Positions 29,889 to 34,969 of a DNA stretch of 38,832 bases are shown here, one piece after another. Position 1 is the first letter of the stretch. The number at the start of each line of letters is the position of its first letter. The stretch is from an uncultured Dialister sp. (lineage in GTDB: Bacteria; Bacillota; Negativicutes; Veillonellales; Dialisteraceae): assembly GCA_900541485.1 (NCBI GenBank), contig UQJW01000012.1, forward strand, positions 1 to 38,832, read 5' to 3'. The position numbers and the translations under genes were made by a program. The notes under the pieces are model-generated. The model worked only from the letters and a program-made list of their open reading frames with translations, was not told where the DNA came from and did not search any database.

Positions 29889-30407
29889 TCAATCACGGGA
29901 AATCACTTGGAAATGCCTGTCCTCTTTCCGTTTCACATCGCTGCCCGGTGCATGCCCGACGGCAACTGCCAGTAAAGGAAGTGTCCCCTCCGGCAAATCA
30001 AGCATTTTTATATATTCCGCATCTTCTCCCAAGTGGCGGATAAATCCGAAGAGTATCACTGAACCGAGTCCCAGTTCTGCCGCCTTTAAATGGATATGTT
30101 CTGCAATAATCCCTGCATCAAAATGCATCAGGTAATCTACCGCTTCTTTTGTTTTGCAAATGATAAAAAGAAGCGGTGCTTTAAATAAGGGGTCGCCGTT
30201 TCCCGTTTTTTCTTTTTCTTCTTTTTTTATCATTTCTAAAATTTCTTTGTTTTTTACGACGACAATGGTATACCCCGCATCATTATGTTTTCCCACGGAA
30301 GAGGCCATGGCCGCTTTCAGCATTTCTTCTTCCGACTCCTCGGACACCGGGTCGGCTTTATAATTTCTCATTGACTTGCGAAGTGCCAGTACATCATTAA
30401 ATTCCAT
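29889..30407 (-). CDS. nitroreductase family protein
   Basis: A 172-residue FMN-dependent nitroreductase-fold oxidoreductase. Family features: ALRKSMRNYKADPVSEE at the N-terminus (FMN phosphate arginines), AAMASSVGKHNDAGYTIVVV, the HFDAGIIAEHIHLKAAELGLG helix, and a C-terminal LAVAVGHAPGSDVKRKEDRH. The ATG at 30407 follows GGAGGGAAAAG; the longer open frame to 30503 runs past the TATAAT box at 30449-30444. Its natural substrate cannot be deduced. It diverges from the ABC transporter operon. Confidence 0.9.
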   Translation of the reverse strand: MEFNDVLALRKSMRNYKADPVSEESEEEMLKAAMASSVGKHNDAGYTIVVVKNKEILEMIKKEEKEKTGNGDPLFKAPLLFIICKTKEAVDYLMHFDAGIIAEHIHLKAAELGLGSVILFGFIRHLGEDAEYIKMLDLPEGTLPLLAVAVGHAPGSDVKRKEDRHFQVISRD

Positions 30408-30482
30408 ATCTTTTCCCTCCTGTTTTTCACCGGATTTACTTTTATTATACCCTGTTCTTCCCAAAAAACCTATGATGTCCCT

Positions 30483-30511
30483 TTGACAATCATTTTTAAT
30501 CATGATAAGAT
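30483..30511 (+). promoter_or_regulatory. promoter of the Cys-leader / ABC transporter operon
   Basis: TTGACA (30483-30488), 17 nt, TAAGAT (30506-30511). Start of transcription would be near 30518, about 36 nt before the leader peptide ATG. Confidence 0.75.
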
Positions 30512-30553
30512 GTTTTTAAATTAAGCAATTGAAGCAGAAAGGAAGTACGCAAT

Positions 30554-30643
30554 ATGAACAGTGCAATGCATGCAAAGGCTACTTGTTGTCCCATGGCATG
30601 TTGCTGTCATGTCCCCTTTGCGTGCGCTCCTTTTCATAAATAA
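30554..30643 (+). CDS. cysteine-rich leader peptide (29 aa, putative attenuation peptide)
   Basis: A small ORF with AAAGGAAG (30538-30545) 8 nt before its ATG, ending in TAA at 30641-30643. Six of 29 codons are cysteine: residues 11-12 (TGT TGT), 16-18 (TGT TGC TGT) and 24 (TGC), that is CC, CCC and C. Such density by chance is very unlikely, and the position is right after a promoter and right before a terminator. No membrane segment or metal-binding family is recognised. The best reading is a leader peptide whose translation reports Cys-tRNA supply. A functional Cys-rich micropeptide is the alternative. Confidence 0.7.
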   Translation: MNSAMHAKATCCPMACCCHVPFACAPFHK

Positions 30644-30716
30644 CCGGCTTGTCACAAAAATTCTGTGACCCTTTCTCTGTACCGGAATGCGGGAAGCGCA
30701 AGCTTTCCGTTTTTTT
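30644..30716 (+). promoter_or_regulatory. attenuator: antiterminator elements and rho-independent terminator
   Basis: Right after the leader stop codon, GGCTTG (30646-30651) is complementary to CAAGCT (30699-30704, one G-U pair), which includes the loop and the start of the 3' arm of a terminator. The terminator is CGGGAAGC (30690-30697), loop GCAA, GCTTTCCG (30702-30709), then seven T residues (30710-30716). A GTCACA / TGTGAC hairpin (30651-30669) sits between. The two long-range pairings are mutually exclusive. A ribosome at the stop codon would cover GGCTTG; one stalled on a Cys codon would leave it free. Confidence 0.7.
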
Positions 30717-30735
30717 GTTTCTAAAAAGGAGTCTT

Positions 30736-31407
30736 ATGGATACTGAGTTTATGTGGAAATTTGCACCGCTTTTTGCGGAAGCTGCAATCACCACCATTTC
30801 TATCGCCTTTCTCGGCATCGTACTATCCGCACTTCTCGGCTTGGCAATCAGCCTTATCCGTTATGAAAAAGTGCCTCTCCTGACACCTCTTTCAGGTGCG
30901 TATATCGAGCTTTCAAGAAATACCCCTCTTCTGGTCCAGCTGTTTTTCCTCTACTTCGGTCTTCCGAAAATAGGGGTTCATATTTCGGGAACAGCCTGTG
31001 CCGTTCTGGGTCTTACATTTTTAGGCGGAAGCTATATGGCAGAAGCCTTCCGCGGCGGGCTGGAAGCCGTTTCTAAATCGCAAATCGAATCCGCCTCCGC
31101 CCTCGGCCTCAGCAAGTACCAAATGCTCCGGTATATCACAGGGCCCCAGGCTTTTATCGTTGCCCTTCCCTCTATTTGTGCAAATGTGCTTTTCCTTATT
31201 AAAGAAACTTCCGTTTTCAGTGTCTGTGCTGTTCCCGATTTGATGTATGTCGCCAAGGATCTCATCGGTCTTTATTACAAAACAGATGAAACGTTATGGA
31301 TGCTTGTTATTTCTTATCTGATTATTTTGCTCCCTCTCTCTTTGGGAGCATCGTACCTGGAAAGGAGACTTCGTCATGGACGATTTGGGACTCTCCGTAC
31401 TCTTTGA
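30736..31407 (+). CDS. polar amino acid ABC transporter permease (probable cystine/S-amino acid)
   Basis: A 223-residue inner-membrane permease of the HisM/TcyL type. Several hydrophobic helices are visible, and the EAA loop appears as EAFRGGLEAVSKSQIESASALGLSKYQ, the ATPase contact. YIELSRNTPLLVQLFF is a signature of polar amino acid permeases. The ATG at 30736 follows AAAAGGAG; the open frame back to 30649 passes through the attenuator terminator and is not used. First structural gene of the operon; its cysteine link is inferred from the leader peptide and the downstream C-S lyase. Confidence 0.93.
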   Translation: MDTEFMWKFAPLFAEAAITTISIAFLGIVLSALLGLAISLIRYEKVPLLTPLSGAYIELSRNTPLLVQLFFLYFGLPKIGVHISGTACAVLGLTFLGGSYMAEAFRGGLEAVSKSQIESASALGLSKYQMLRYITGPQAFIVALPSICANVLFLIKETSVFSVCAVPDLMYVAKDLIGLYYKTDETLWMLVISYLIILLPLSLGASYLERRLRHGRFGTLRTL

Positions 31408-32053
31408 AGGCTCTAATGGTATCCGTCTTCTCGGCGGACTTTGGACAACTGTGGAAATTTCCCTCCTTTCTGTAGTGGGATCGATTATTTTCGGTATTCT
31501 CGCCGGTATCGCCATGACACTTCCGTATAAAGGTTTACAACTCGTCATGCGTCTGTATCTTGAATCGGTCCGTATCCTTCCCCAGCTTGTACTTCTTTTC
31601 ATTGCCTATTTCGGTGTGACAAGAGCTGTCGGTGTGGATATTTCCGGTTTTACTGCCTCTATTATTGTCTTTATTTTCTGGGGCGCCGCCGAAATGGGCG
31701 ACCTTGTCAGAGGTGCTCTTCTTTCCATTCCGGCCGGACAATATGAAAGTGCTGCTGCTTTGGGACTTTCCCGCCGGCAAACCTTCCATTATATTATTCT
31801 CCCCCAGTCGCTCCGCCGTCTTCTTCCCCCGGCAATCAACTTATTTACACGCATTATAAAAACCACGTCCCTTATCGTACTGCTTGGAGTCGTGGAAATG
31901 CTCAAAATCGGACAGCAAATCATAGAGGCCAACCGCTATACAGCACCTGATGCGGCTCTCTGGATTTACGGAACAATATTCTTCTTATACTTCTTAGCCT
32001 GCTACCCTTTGTCAAAGATGGCGGCTCATTTAGAAAAGAAATGGACGGCCTGA
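31376..32053 (+). CDS. polar amino acid ABC transporter permease, second subunit
   Basis: A 225-residue paralogue of the first permease, presumably its heterodimer partner. N-terminal residues 1-15 are soluble, then the [16 protein letters not shown] helix, the [20 protein letters not shown] signature, and the EAA loop [21 protein letters not shown]. It overlaps the first permease gene by 32 nt, with its ribosome binding site AAGGAG inside that gene, and ends 1 nt before the ATPase gene. Confidence 0.93.
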
Positions 32054-32054
32054 T

Positions 32055-32801
32055 ATGGAAAAAGAAATTCTTCTTGAAGTCAATCATCTGAGTAAAAAAT
32101 TCGGAGACCAAACCATTCTGAAAGATATTTCCCTCACCCTGCGGAAAAGCGAAGTTATCGTAATCATCGGTCCCTCCGGCTGCGGAAAATCGACCTTTCT
32201 CCGGTGTCTGAACGGACTTGAATCCGTATCGGGCGGTGATATTATTCTGGAAGGACAAAAAATTTCTGACGGCTCTATGCCCCATGCGGAACTCTGCCAA
32301 AAAATCGGTATGGTTTTCCAAAGCTATGATTTATTTCCCCATATGACCGTCATGGAAAATATCACGCTCGCCCCCTTGCAGGTCCAGCACCGCAATAAAG
32401 AGGAAGTTCTCAAGGAAGCAAGAAAAATGCTTTCCCGTATCGGACTTTCCGATAAAGAAAATGCTTATCCCCGTGAATTATCAGGCGGGCAGAAACAAAG
32501 AATCGCCATGATCAGGGCTCTCATTATGAAGCCTGACATTATGCTCTTTGATGAAGTTACCGCCTCTCTGGATCCCGAAATGGTACGGGAAGTTTTGGAC
32601 GTCGTTATGGAGCTTGCCAAAGAGGGAATGACAATGGTCATTGTCAGCCACGAAATGCAATTTGCCCGGGCCGTAGCGGATCGTATTCTTTTCTTTGACA
32701 AAGGTCTCATCGCTGAAGAAGGAACGCCGGATACTATTTTTGATAATCCTCAAAATCCGCGGACAAAACAGTTTCTCCATTCGTTTACCTATGAAAATTA
32801 A
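32055..32801 (+). CDS. amino acid ABC transporter ATPase
   Basis: The 248-residue nucleotide-binding subunit. Walker A is GPSGCGKST (residues 39-47), the Q-loop [16 protein letters not shown], the signature LSGGQKQR (142-149), Walker B IMLFDE (162-167), and the switch histidine in [10 protein letters not shown]. The D-loop reads [10 protein letters not shown] where most GlnQ/HisP-type proteins have DEPTSALDPE; this does not touch catalytic residues. Family: polar amino acid uptake (GlnQ/TcyN). Confidence 0.95.
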
Positions 32802-32837: not shown

Positions 32838-33701
32838 ATGCTGAAAAAGATTTATTATTTACTCGCCGCTCTTCTTTTACTCACCACACTTTCCCTCTCG
32901 GCAGGGTGCGGAAGCAAGAACCAGATCCAGGGAACGGCCCCTCAAAAAGCCACCTTCCGCTCCATGGATGAAATCAAAAAAAGCGGTAAGCTTATCATCG
33001 GCGTATTCAGTGACAAAGCCCCTTTCGGCTATGTTGATAAGGACGGAAACTACCAGGGCTACGATGTATACTTTGCAGAACGTCTGGCCAAAGACTTGGG
33101 GGTTAAAGCCGAATATATTTCTCTGGAACCGGCTAACCGTGTCGAATATGCAAAAACCGGCAAAGTCGATATCGTCCTTGCCAACTTTACCATAACCAAA
33201 GAAAGAGCCGAACAGGTAGATTTTGCTCTTCCTTACATGAAAGTTGCTTTAGGTGTTGTTTCTCCGGTAGAAAATAACATTACCGACCTTTCCCAGCTCA
33301 AAGACAAACAGCTTATTGTAGCAAAAGGCACAACGGCAGAAACTTATTTCTCCAAACATCACCCTGAAATCAAGCTTCTGAAATTCGACCAGTATACGGA
33401 AACCTACAACGCTCTCCTTGACTGCAGAGCTGCCGCATTCTCTACAGACAATACGGAAGTCCTCGCATGGGCCTTGAAAAATCCGGGATTCAAAGTGGGC
33501 ATTACCTCTTTAGGCGATATTGACACGATTGCTCCGGCTGTACAAAAAGGAAATAAAGAGCTCCTTAACTATATCAACGATGAAATCAAAAAATTGGGCA
33601 AAGAAAACTTTTTCCATAAGAACTATGAAATTACCCTTGCCCCTGTCTATGGAAGTGCCGTCAATCCCGATGACCTCGTTGTCGAAGGTGGACAGCTTTA
33701 G
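32838..33701 (+). CDS. amino acid ABC transporter substrate-binding lipoprotein
   Basis: A 287-residue solute-binding protein of the bacterial type 3 (SBP_bac_3) family. A lipoprotein signal precedes C24 in the lipobox LSAG-C, so it is lipid-anchored, on the inner-membrane face in this diderm cell. Family features: GKLIIGVFSDKAPFGYVDKDG, YDVYFAERLAKDLG, LANFTITKERAEQVDFALPY. The ligand-binding residues cannot settle the substrate by eye; cystine, cysteine, cystathionine or another S-amino acid fits the context. Last gene before a hairpin that may partly stop transcription into patB. Confidence 0.93.
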   Translation: MLKKIYYLLAALLLLTTLSLSAGCGSKNQIQGTAPQKATFRSMDEIKKSGKLIIGVFSDKAPFGYVDKDGNYQGYDVYFAERLAKDLGVKAEYISLEPANRVEYAKTGKVDIVLANFTITKERAEQVDFALPYMKVALGVVSPVENNITDLSQLKDKQLIVAKGTTAETYFSKHHPEIKLLKFDQYTETYNALLDCRAAAFSTDNTEVLAWALKNPGFKVGITSLGDIDTIAPAVQKGNKELLNYINDEIKKLGKENFFHKNYEITLAPVYGSAVNPDDLVVEGGQL

Positions 33702-33793: not shown

Positions 33794-34969
33794 ATGAACC
33801 TTTCCGATCTTGATATCGTCATTGACAGAAAAAATACAAACTCTATGAAATTCGACTTTGCCAAAGAAGAAGGTAAGCCGGATAATCTCCTCCCCTTTTG
33901 GATTGCCGACATGGATTTCCCCGTTGCCGCATGCATCACCGAAGCCCTGCAAAAGCGGGTAGATCATGCCATTTACGGGTACTCTGAAGCAAAACCCTCT
34001 TATTTCAAAGCCGTTCATGACTGGTTTCTTCATAATTTCCAATGGAACACAAAACCGGAATGGTTGGTCAAAACGCCCGGTGTCGTTCCTGCCATCAACC
34101 TTGCTGTCAAAGCACTGACAAAAGAAAATGAGGCCGTTCTCATTCACCGCCCCGTTTACCACCCTTTTACTTTTGCCATAGAAAATAACAAAAGAAAACT
34201 GGTCAACAGTCCGCTGATTCTGAAAAACGGCCGCTATGAAATTGATTTTGCAGACATGGAAAGAAAAATTACAGAAAATAAGGTAAAGCTTGCCATTTTC
34301 TGTTCTCCCCATAACCCTGCCGGACGGGTATGGACAAAAGAAGAATTGGAAACCTATGCAGATATTTGTATCCGCCATGACGTAAAAATTATTTCCGATG
34401 AAATTCACGCCGACTTTGCCTATCCCGGTTACAAACATATTCCCTTTGCCGCTATCAATGAAAAAGCTGCTGAACAAGTCATTCTTTGCACGGCTCCGAG
34501 CAAAACATTCAACATAGCGGGGCTTCAGGTTTCCAATATCTGGATTCCTAATCCCGAAATCCGTGCCGCTTTCCAACAGGAACTCGCCGCTTTCGGCTAT
34601 GACCATGTAAACGTCATGGGCCTTATCGCAGGAGAAGCTGCCTATAAGGGCGCCGGCGAATGGCTGTCTGTCGTTAAAGAATATATCGGAAACAATTTAG
34701 ACTATACACGACAATTCCTGAAAGAAAAACTCCCGAAATTGAAACTCATAGAACCGGAAGGCACCTATCTCGCCTGGATCGATTGCAACGGCTATGGTCT
34801 CAGTGATACGGAAATGGAGCAAAAACTTTTAAATGACGCCAAAATCTGGGTCAATATGGGCTCCATGTTCGGACCCGAAGGAAACTGCTTCATTCGTCTG
34901 AACCTCGCCTGCCCCAAGAAAACATTGGAGCAAGGTCTTAGGCAGCTTTATGCGGGACTGGAAAAATAG
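33794..34969 (+). CDS. patB: PatB/MalY-type PLP-dependent cystathionine beta-lyase (C-S lyase)
   Basis: A fold-type I aminotransferase-like enzyme of 391 residues. MalY/PatB signatures: LPFWIADMDFPV near the N-terminus, IYGYSEAKPSY, TPGVVPAINLAVKAL, IFCSPHNPAGRVW, IISDEIHADFAYPGY, and the PLP lysine K237 in TAPSKTFNIAGLQ. Such enzymes cleave the C-S bond of cystathionine, cysteine, cystine or S-conjugates to pyruvate, ammonia and a thiol. Its place after the transporter suggests that it processes the imported substrate. The ATG follows AAAAGGAGG. Confidence 0.93.
   Translation: MNLSDLDIVIDRKNTNSMKFDFAKEEGKPDNLLPFWIADMDFPVAACITEALQKRVDHAIYGYSEAKPSYFKAVHDWFLHNFQWNTKPEWLVKTPGVVPAINLAVKALTKENEAVLIHRPVYHPFTFAIENNKRKLVNSPLILKNGRYEIDFADMERKITENKVKLAIFCSPHNPAGRVWTKEELETYADICIRHDVKIISDEIHADFAYPGYKHIPFAAINEKAAEQVILCTAPSKTFNIAGLQVSNIWIPNPEIRAAFQQELAAFGYDHVNVMGLIAGEAAYKGAGEWLSVVKEYIGNNLDYTRQFLKEKLPKLKLIEPEGTYLAWIDCNGYGLSDTEMEQKLLNDAKIWVNMGSMFGPEGNCFIRLNLACPKKTLEQGLRQLYAGLEK

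Follow-up and report, generated by a model that had tools for sequence, protein, structure and literature searches.

Transcription attenuators of the trp, his and leu type combine a short ORF carrying control codons with a terminator whose 5' arm can also enter an alternative pairing. In Bacillota, a common device for sensing aminoacyl-tRNA supply is the T-box, and the textbook control of cysteine genes is by T-boxes and CymR.

Related leaders are described in several papers. The ilv-leu operon of Staphylococcus aureus has a Leu-rich leader attenuator, with mutations in leader and terminator (PMC5794164), and His leader peptides are described in bacilli (PMC2965389). Cys leader peptides were predicted in 2005 in Mycobacterium, Propionibacterium and Bifidobacterium, without conserved terminators (PMC1262725), Cys-rich upstream ORFs of mycobacteria followed in 2015 (PMC4633059), and mycobacterial polycysteine leaders have been presented as a case of translation attenuation (PMC13236596); the last paper and PMC9094748 also mention the study of Canestrari et al. 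2020 on mycobacterial Cys leaders. In Rhodobacterales, a Cys attenuator is predicted before cysS: the uORFC-8-2 motif there has tandem Cys codons and includes a terminator (PMC8632094).

The window, i.e., the whole stretch of 38,832 nucleotides analysed here, contains a locus that has in common with the trp/his/leu type a short control-codon ORF, a terminator and a predicted pairing with the terminator 5' arm, all before the first structural gene; it differs in the control codon, which is Cys, in the operon, which is predicted to import the amino acid, and in the masking 1:2 pairing, which is predicted in only 10 of 22 representatives of the related loci. With the Cys-rich ORFs of Actinobacteria (PMC1262725, PMC4633059, PMC13236596, PMC9094748) it shares runs of Cys codons before cysteine-related genes and a response to cysteine, described there and proposed here. 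The mycobacterial and other Actinobacterial ORFs differ in being leaderless, in having no conserved terminator hairpin and in preceding cys operons, not this importer; the leader of the window has both a Shine-Dalgarno (SD)-like motif and a terminator. The uORFC-8-2 motif resembles the window in its tandem Cys codons and terminator, but it belongs to a cysteinyl-tRNA synthetase gene of Alphaproteobacteria, whereas the window leader precedes an ABC importer. The S. aureus ilv-leu system is likewise leader-peptide attenuation in Bacillota, but with Leu control, a biosynthetic operon and an antiterminator that uses the U-tract of the terminator.

The earlier note on this DNA knew of no peptide-based Cys attenuator in Negativicutes. 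Such leaders are not peculiar to that group, and Cys leader attenuation itself is already described or predicted in Actinobacteria and Rhodobacterales. The literature search, which covered few subscription journals or preprints, found no Cys leader attenuator before a cysteine or cystine importer of Bacillota and no report of the distribution before an L-cysteine importer described below.

Leader region and operon of the window

The features of the leader region, all on the forward strand, are as follows.

30483-30511, +, promoter-like site TTGACA-N17-TAAGAT (TTGACA at 30483-30488, TAAGAT at 30506-30511; 10/12 matches)
30539-30545, +, SD-like AAGGAAG of the leader ORF (from the sequence)
30554-30643, +, predicted leader ORF, 29 sense codons and stop, MNSAMHAKATCCPMACCCHVPFACAPFHK (sequence and codon list)
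30568-30578, +, possible protector strand (region 1), pairing with 30615-30625 in the fold from 30554, i.e., without a ribosome
30584-30607, +, control codons, comprising a Cys pair at 30584-30589 and a Cys triplet at 30599-30607 (codon list)
30623-30631, +, putative antiterminator 5' strand (region 2), holding the sixth Cys codon; partner of 30691-30700 in folding
30651-30669, +, predicted small hairpin GTCACAAAAATTCTGTGAC between the two antiterminator strands (folding)
30690-30716, +, intrinsic terminator with stem CGGGAAGC/GCTTTCCG, GCAA loop and seven T; stem-loop of -14.1 kcal/mol
30691-30700, +, region 3, the putative antiterminator 3' strand, which shares bases with the 5' arm and loop of the terminator (folding)

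The promoter-like site, the 29-codon ORF with six Cys codons in runs of two, three and one, and the terminator all lie where the earlier note had placed them. The leader ORF begins about 43 nt downstream of the end of the promoter-like site, with its SD-like motif in front of the ATG at 30554, and ends at the TAA at 30641-30643; its Cys codons, at 30584, 30587, 30599, 30602, 30605 and 30623, make up 6 of the 29 codons, and the peptide also contains three His and three Met. The terminator follows, with its stem and loop at 30690-30709 and a T run that ends at 30716, before the ATG of permease 1 at 30736. A nitroreductase-family ORF (PF00881) lies on the minus strand at 29889-30503 of the window, divergent from the leader, and its longest reading frame overlaps the promoter-like site.

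Only three short ORFs (8-60 codons) on both strands of the whole window have at least four Cys in 10 codons, and the leader ORF is the densest of the short ORFs, with five Cys in 10 codons; at least five would be expected in 0.05 of 68 dinucleotide-shuffled upstream regions. Since this Cys density is rare in shuffles and the highest in the window, the leader ORF is beyond chance on its own. In 1.2 kb of the window, the search found one promoter-like site against a shuffle mean of 2.0 and two terminator-like sites against 1.5 in shuffles, and the promoter and terminator of the window appear beyond chance only when taken with those of the relatives.

The leader is followed by five genes.

30736-31407, +, permease 1 (BPD_transp_1, domain match)
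31376-32053, +, permease 2 (BPD_transp_1, domain match)
32055-32801, +, ATPase (ABC_tran, domain match)
32838-33701, +, solute-binding protein (SBP_bac_3), closest to 1xt8 and 2yjp among solved structures
33794-34969, +, PatB-family C-S lyase (TIGR04350, 463.4 bits against a cut-off of 340)

The operon thus encodes a four-gene ABC importer and a PatB-type C-S lyase. A comparison of the binding protein with solved structures gave 1xt8 (E 1.9e-86) and 2yjp (E 1.2e-83), both of which we take to be L-cysteine binders; the next solved relative is far behind (1.5e-36), and 2yln, presumably a cystine binder, reached 8.6e-15. The earlier note had proposed cystine or another sulfur-containing amino acid as the substrate; the sulfur amino acid is retained, and the nearest solved relatives, with the ligands assigned to them here, point to L-cysteine and not to cystine. 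Among the best 120 matches listed, the closest homologues of the binding protein are 98% identical, and Dialister invisus proteins named "cysteine ABC transporter substrate-binding protein" are 84-85% identical; the host is thus probably a species of Dialister distinct from D. invisus. One homologue of 448 residues, P0001, scored 814 bits with the 287-residue binding protein; as the 98%-identical matches scored 621, it may contain a duplicated binding domain.

Cys-dense leaders upstream of related permeases

A scan of genome contigs with permease 1 yielded at least 80 loci of 58-66% identity, whose titles name Lachnospiraceae, other Clostridia, Aedoeadaptatus, Peptoniphilus, Treponema, Streptococcus and Duodenibacillus, among others; none of the permease 1 loci listed (at least 80) has Negativicutes in its title. 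A sample of 398 genomes of one phylum contained no permease 1 relative closer than 63%, and the viral contigs searched contained no relative. A large share of the listed loci have their genes in the same order, permease-permease-ATPase-binding protein, and in L004, L005, L011, L017, L018 and L019 permease 1 is preceded, at a distance of one or two genes, by a PatB relative.

With a strict threshold of a short ORF with at least four Cys in 10 codons, a leader was found in 13 of 68 usable upstream regions, the window included; these regions ended at neighbouring genes. L046, which has 24 nt upstream, was left out together with two duplicate rows, and 10 of 78 regions were dropped for being under 80 nt long. 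The same threshold was reached in 1 of 258 other intergenic regions of those loci, in 0 of 68 antisense regions and in 0.175 of 68 shuffled ones. Wider sampling gave 155 permease rows including the window, 139 of them with distinct upstream DNA, and a Cys-dense short ORF in 43 of the 139 regions, a sample biased because the family and genus searches were centred on genomes already showing leaders; only the best 30 of 59 matches from one relative search were made into loci. This count used 450 nt with neighbouring genes ignored, so the regions ran past such genes and some leaders lie far upstream (L035, L049, L090, L122, L126). The ORF and its Cys codons, which the earlier note expected at homologous loci, are thus found in several lineages but at the strict threshold are absent from 96 of the 139 distinct regions; eight regions hold weaker candidates.

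The leaders are unevenly distributed. The family of genome G003 (locus L041, Aedoeadaptatus; L084, L094-L103) has dense Cys runs at the threshold in 9 of 11 loci, the tenth having three Cys and the eleventh fewer. In the genus of G004 (locus L065, Lacrimispora; L085, L116, L135-L154), 21 of 22 loci carry a leader, as do two of three in the family of G005 (locus L071, Duodenibacillus). No Cys-dense ORF was present within 400 nt upstream in the seven Streptococcus-titled or the seven Treponema-titled loci. Paralogous permeases were represented by 16 loci from five leader-bearing genomes, chosen from 32 paralogue rows; none of their 26 intergenic regions reached the threshold, and one has three Cys.

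Several single loci deserve mention. In L096, of the G003 family, a leader-like ORF in which Cys and Ser alternate (AASCSSCSS, by eye) lies about 125-225 nt upstream of permease 1, with a terminator-like stem after it. In L175 (G003:C3:37537-41181, minus strand), a short ORF with three Cys in 10 codons lies upstream of the gene at 1953, which adjoins a paralogous permease, and a second Cys leader in G003 is possible. The leader regions of L052 and L062, titled as Paenibacillaceae and Hungatella MAGs, are near-identical to those of Lacrimispora L039 and L065; wrong titles or a transfer of the region could account for this. In L071 (Duodenibacillus) and in L105, from the same family, the importer has a Cys leader and a terminator of its own; since Duodenibacillus presumably belongs to Pseudomonadota, this suggests transfer or an independent origin.

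The other parts of the leader region recur as well. A terminator starts 10-75 nt after the leader stop in all 54 leader rows (43 distinct). Among 118 short ORFs that hold no more than one Cys, taken from the remaining permease upstream regions, 33 have such a terminator, and in shuffled sequences it occurs in 27 of 320. Of the 36 leaders (among 43) for which 110 nt of upstream DNA are available, 30 have a promoter-like site with 10/12 or more matches in that stretch (shuffled expectation 1.68), and an SD-like motif precedes an in-frame start in 37 of 43 distinct leaders. Leaders of different lineages have Cys runs in common and little else. In 11 leaders of one clade, the Cys columns contain nine synonymous and 11 residue-changing deviations over seven columns, and the other columns 20 synonymous and 85 residue-changing ones over 28; this codon pattern, taken from few rows of one clade, is consistent with selection for Cys codons.

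Searches with leader peptides against NCBIfam (seven peptides) and Pfam (six) gave nothing above the cut-off and two weak matches below it, and a genome-wide search of ten genomes with a Cys-run DNA pattern gave many matches, not sorted by frame, and was uninformative. A general hairpin over the Cys codons was rejected (mean z -0.39 for 16 lineages); it is strong only in L100, L095 and L038. A T-box or another Rfam control element was also rejected: at the Rfam gathering score the window contains one tRNA only and no T-box, an Rfam scan of 34 of 154 permease loci gave only tRNA, TPP and PyrR matches, and a T-box-like regular expression found nothing in up to 500 nt of the listed loci (at least 80, two of them with short upstream DNA).

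Pairing of the terminator arm

Folds of window transcripts beginning at 30602-30620 and ending at 30700-30704 predict that 30691-30700 pairs with 30623-30631 (UGCGCUCCU with GGGAAGCGCA), and the pair probabilities lie between about 0.47 and 1.0. Region 2 sits just past a ribosome on the Cys triplet. The leading edge of a ribosome is about 12 nt beyond the first base of the A-site codon; with this footprint, a ribosome on the codon at 30605 would free everything from about 30618, and a ribosome at the stop codon (30641) would cover about 30626-30653, which is most of region 2. When the RNA is folded from the ORF start, as it would be with no ribosome on it, 30568-30578 is predicted to bind 30615-30625, and the fold includes the terminator. 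The terminator is present in every full-length fold of the window, and the antiterminator prevails only in transcripts that end before the terminator 3' arm is complete. The folds of the window follow the 1:2, 2:3 and 3:4 logic of trp in these predictions, which is not general among the representatives.

The earlier note had the same logic with another antiterminator, GGCTTG (30646-30651) with CAAGCT (30699-30704). Both motifs are located as it described, and their complementarity is real, appearing in a fold from 30645 to 30704; however, GGCTTG lies after the stop codon, CAAGCT falls in the loop of the terminator and the beginning of its 3' arm, and the pairing is absent from folds with 30623-30631 free (starts at 30602-30620). 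The best duplex with the terminator region is -17.4 kcal/mol for 30617-30640, compared to -10.9 kcal/mol for 30643-30670. GGCTTG/CAAGCT is therefore an improbable main antiterminator, and region 2 with region 3 is probably the better one by these folding energies. Folding by ribosome position, proposed in the same note, bore out an alternative for the terminator arm that a stall would expose, with 30623-30631 as the strand in place of GGCTTG.

The window taken alone gives modest numbers. Its region 2/3 duplex, at -20.0, does not significantly exceed shuffled sequence (mean -16.0, p 0.117), the pairing of its arm was equalled or beaten by 16 of 60 shuffles, and the terminator arm is paired upstream at 0.72 in the stalled state against 0.45 with the ribosome at the stop codon, a modest contrast.

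The comparison of lineages is clearer. For 16 hand-chosen representatives of different lineages, cognate regions 2 and 3 gave a mean of -16.11 kcal/mol, compared to -12.80 for permuted partners (p 0.00005, 20,000 permutations), and -15.34 against -12.59 (p 0.0001) with region 2 confined to the ORF; 20 representatives gave similar results. As permutation alters base composition, the test with dinucleotide shuffles of region 2 matters, and the observed sum over the 16 representatives, -257.7 against -200.2 (sd 10.7) in shuffles, was reached in 0 of 1000. In a comparison of ribosome states, all of 22 representatives sequestered the terminator 5' arm more strongly when the ribosome stood on the Cys codons than when it had reached the stop codon; a longer RNA by itself favours sequestration, so the fair test is that against shuffles, where, for the 16 representatives, 0.756 with the ribosome at the Cys codons compares to 0.537 and was reached in 0 of 60. 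Row by row, p is below 0.05 in just 5 of 23 rows (35 minus 12 duplicate or near-identical ones), the duplex is weaker than its own shuffles in four of the 23 (L011, L038, L041, L049), and L100 is weaker than shuffles in the arm-sequestration test. The cognate pairing of regions 2 and 3 is thus non-random over lineages; in the window by itself it does not exceed chance. A general protector strand is not supported: without a ribosome the arm is still sequestered (0.66 or more) in 12 of 22 representatives; it is freed, an effect comparable to that in the window, in only 10.

Alignments of two clades also predict an arm-sequestering helix. In the 7-row clade, a GCCUGC/GCGGGC pairing is invariant, and next to it one pair is G-C in some rows and A-U in others. 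In the 21-row clade, the 5' arm of the terminator pairs with RNA around the leader stop codon; this helix has a few mispairs and its changes are one-sided, while the terminator of the same clade has two-sided changes. Covariation thus gives good support to the terminator in one clade and only modest support to the antiterminator. The covariation check suggested in the earlier note came out thin: the antiterminator has a single exchanged pair in the 7-row clade, and the main helix of the 21-row clade has none.

Proposed control of the importer

The locus is, very probably, a ribosome-mediated transcription attenuator, which would read the charging of Cys-tRNA and in this way control the operon of an L-cysteine ABC importer and a C-S lyase; the kind and the logic, a Cys-codon leader with an intrinsic terminator before a sulfur-amino-acid importer, agree with the earlier note. 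The parts, their recurrence at orthologous loci and the non-random cognate pairing over lineages are computed, and we infer from them the ribosome positions, the kinetics, the response to cysteine, the direction of control and the state without a ribosome. With cysteine plentiful, the ribosome would reach the stop codon and cover most of region 2 (30623-30631), leaving region 3 to the terminator 3' arm, and the terminator would form and stop transcription. With cysteine scarce, the ribosome would stall on the Cys triplet (30599-30607), and the free region 2 could pair with region 3 (30691-30700) before the terminator 3' arm is made, which would allow the polymerase to read into the importer. 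Without a ribosome, region 1 of the window would mask region 2, leading to termination.

The composition of the window leader, with six Cys, three His and three Met, could also indicate a nascent peptide that stalls the ribosome on binding a metal or on being oxidised, in which case the operon would sense metal or redox stress and not Cys-tRNA; we give this little credence, since the lineages have little in common but Cys runs, the leaders of L041, L100 and L103 have no His, and the downstream genes are a cysteine-type importer. Translational control, in which translation of the leader would open or close the ribosome binding site of the permease, has a precedent in the mycobacterial Cys leaders described as translation attenuators (PMC13236596), but it is very unlikely here, given the intrinsic terminator after the leader stop in every one of the leader rows and the SD-like AAAAAGGAG of permease 1 (about 30723-30731), which lies outside the terminator stem. 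A chance ORF beside an ordinary terminator, with which the near-expected numbers of promoter-like and terminator-like matches in 1.2 kb would agree, is hardly credible in view of the Cys density and its recurrence among relatives, compared to the controls.

Attenuation by Cys codons thus remains the preferred reading. Perhaps, and we offer this tentatively, Cys-codon attenuators are a main control of the L-cysteine importer in parts of Negativicutes, Clostridia and relatives of Duodenibacillus, with repeated origin or re-invention at the same operon; a repeated origin is considered because the leaders of the lineages have Cys runs, spacing and the terminator in common but no sequence. If the preferred reading is true, a trp-style cysteine attenuator would control uptake in common anaerobes of Bacillota, and the rule of a short Cys-dense ORF with a terminator within about 75 nt after its stop codon could be used to annotate cysteine importers and would also flag unannotated leader genes; the leaders around this one operon would then be natural replicates for the evolution of leader attenuators.
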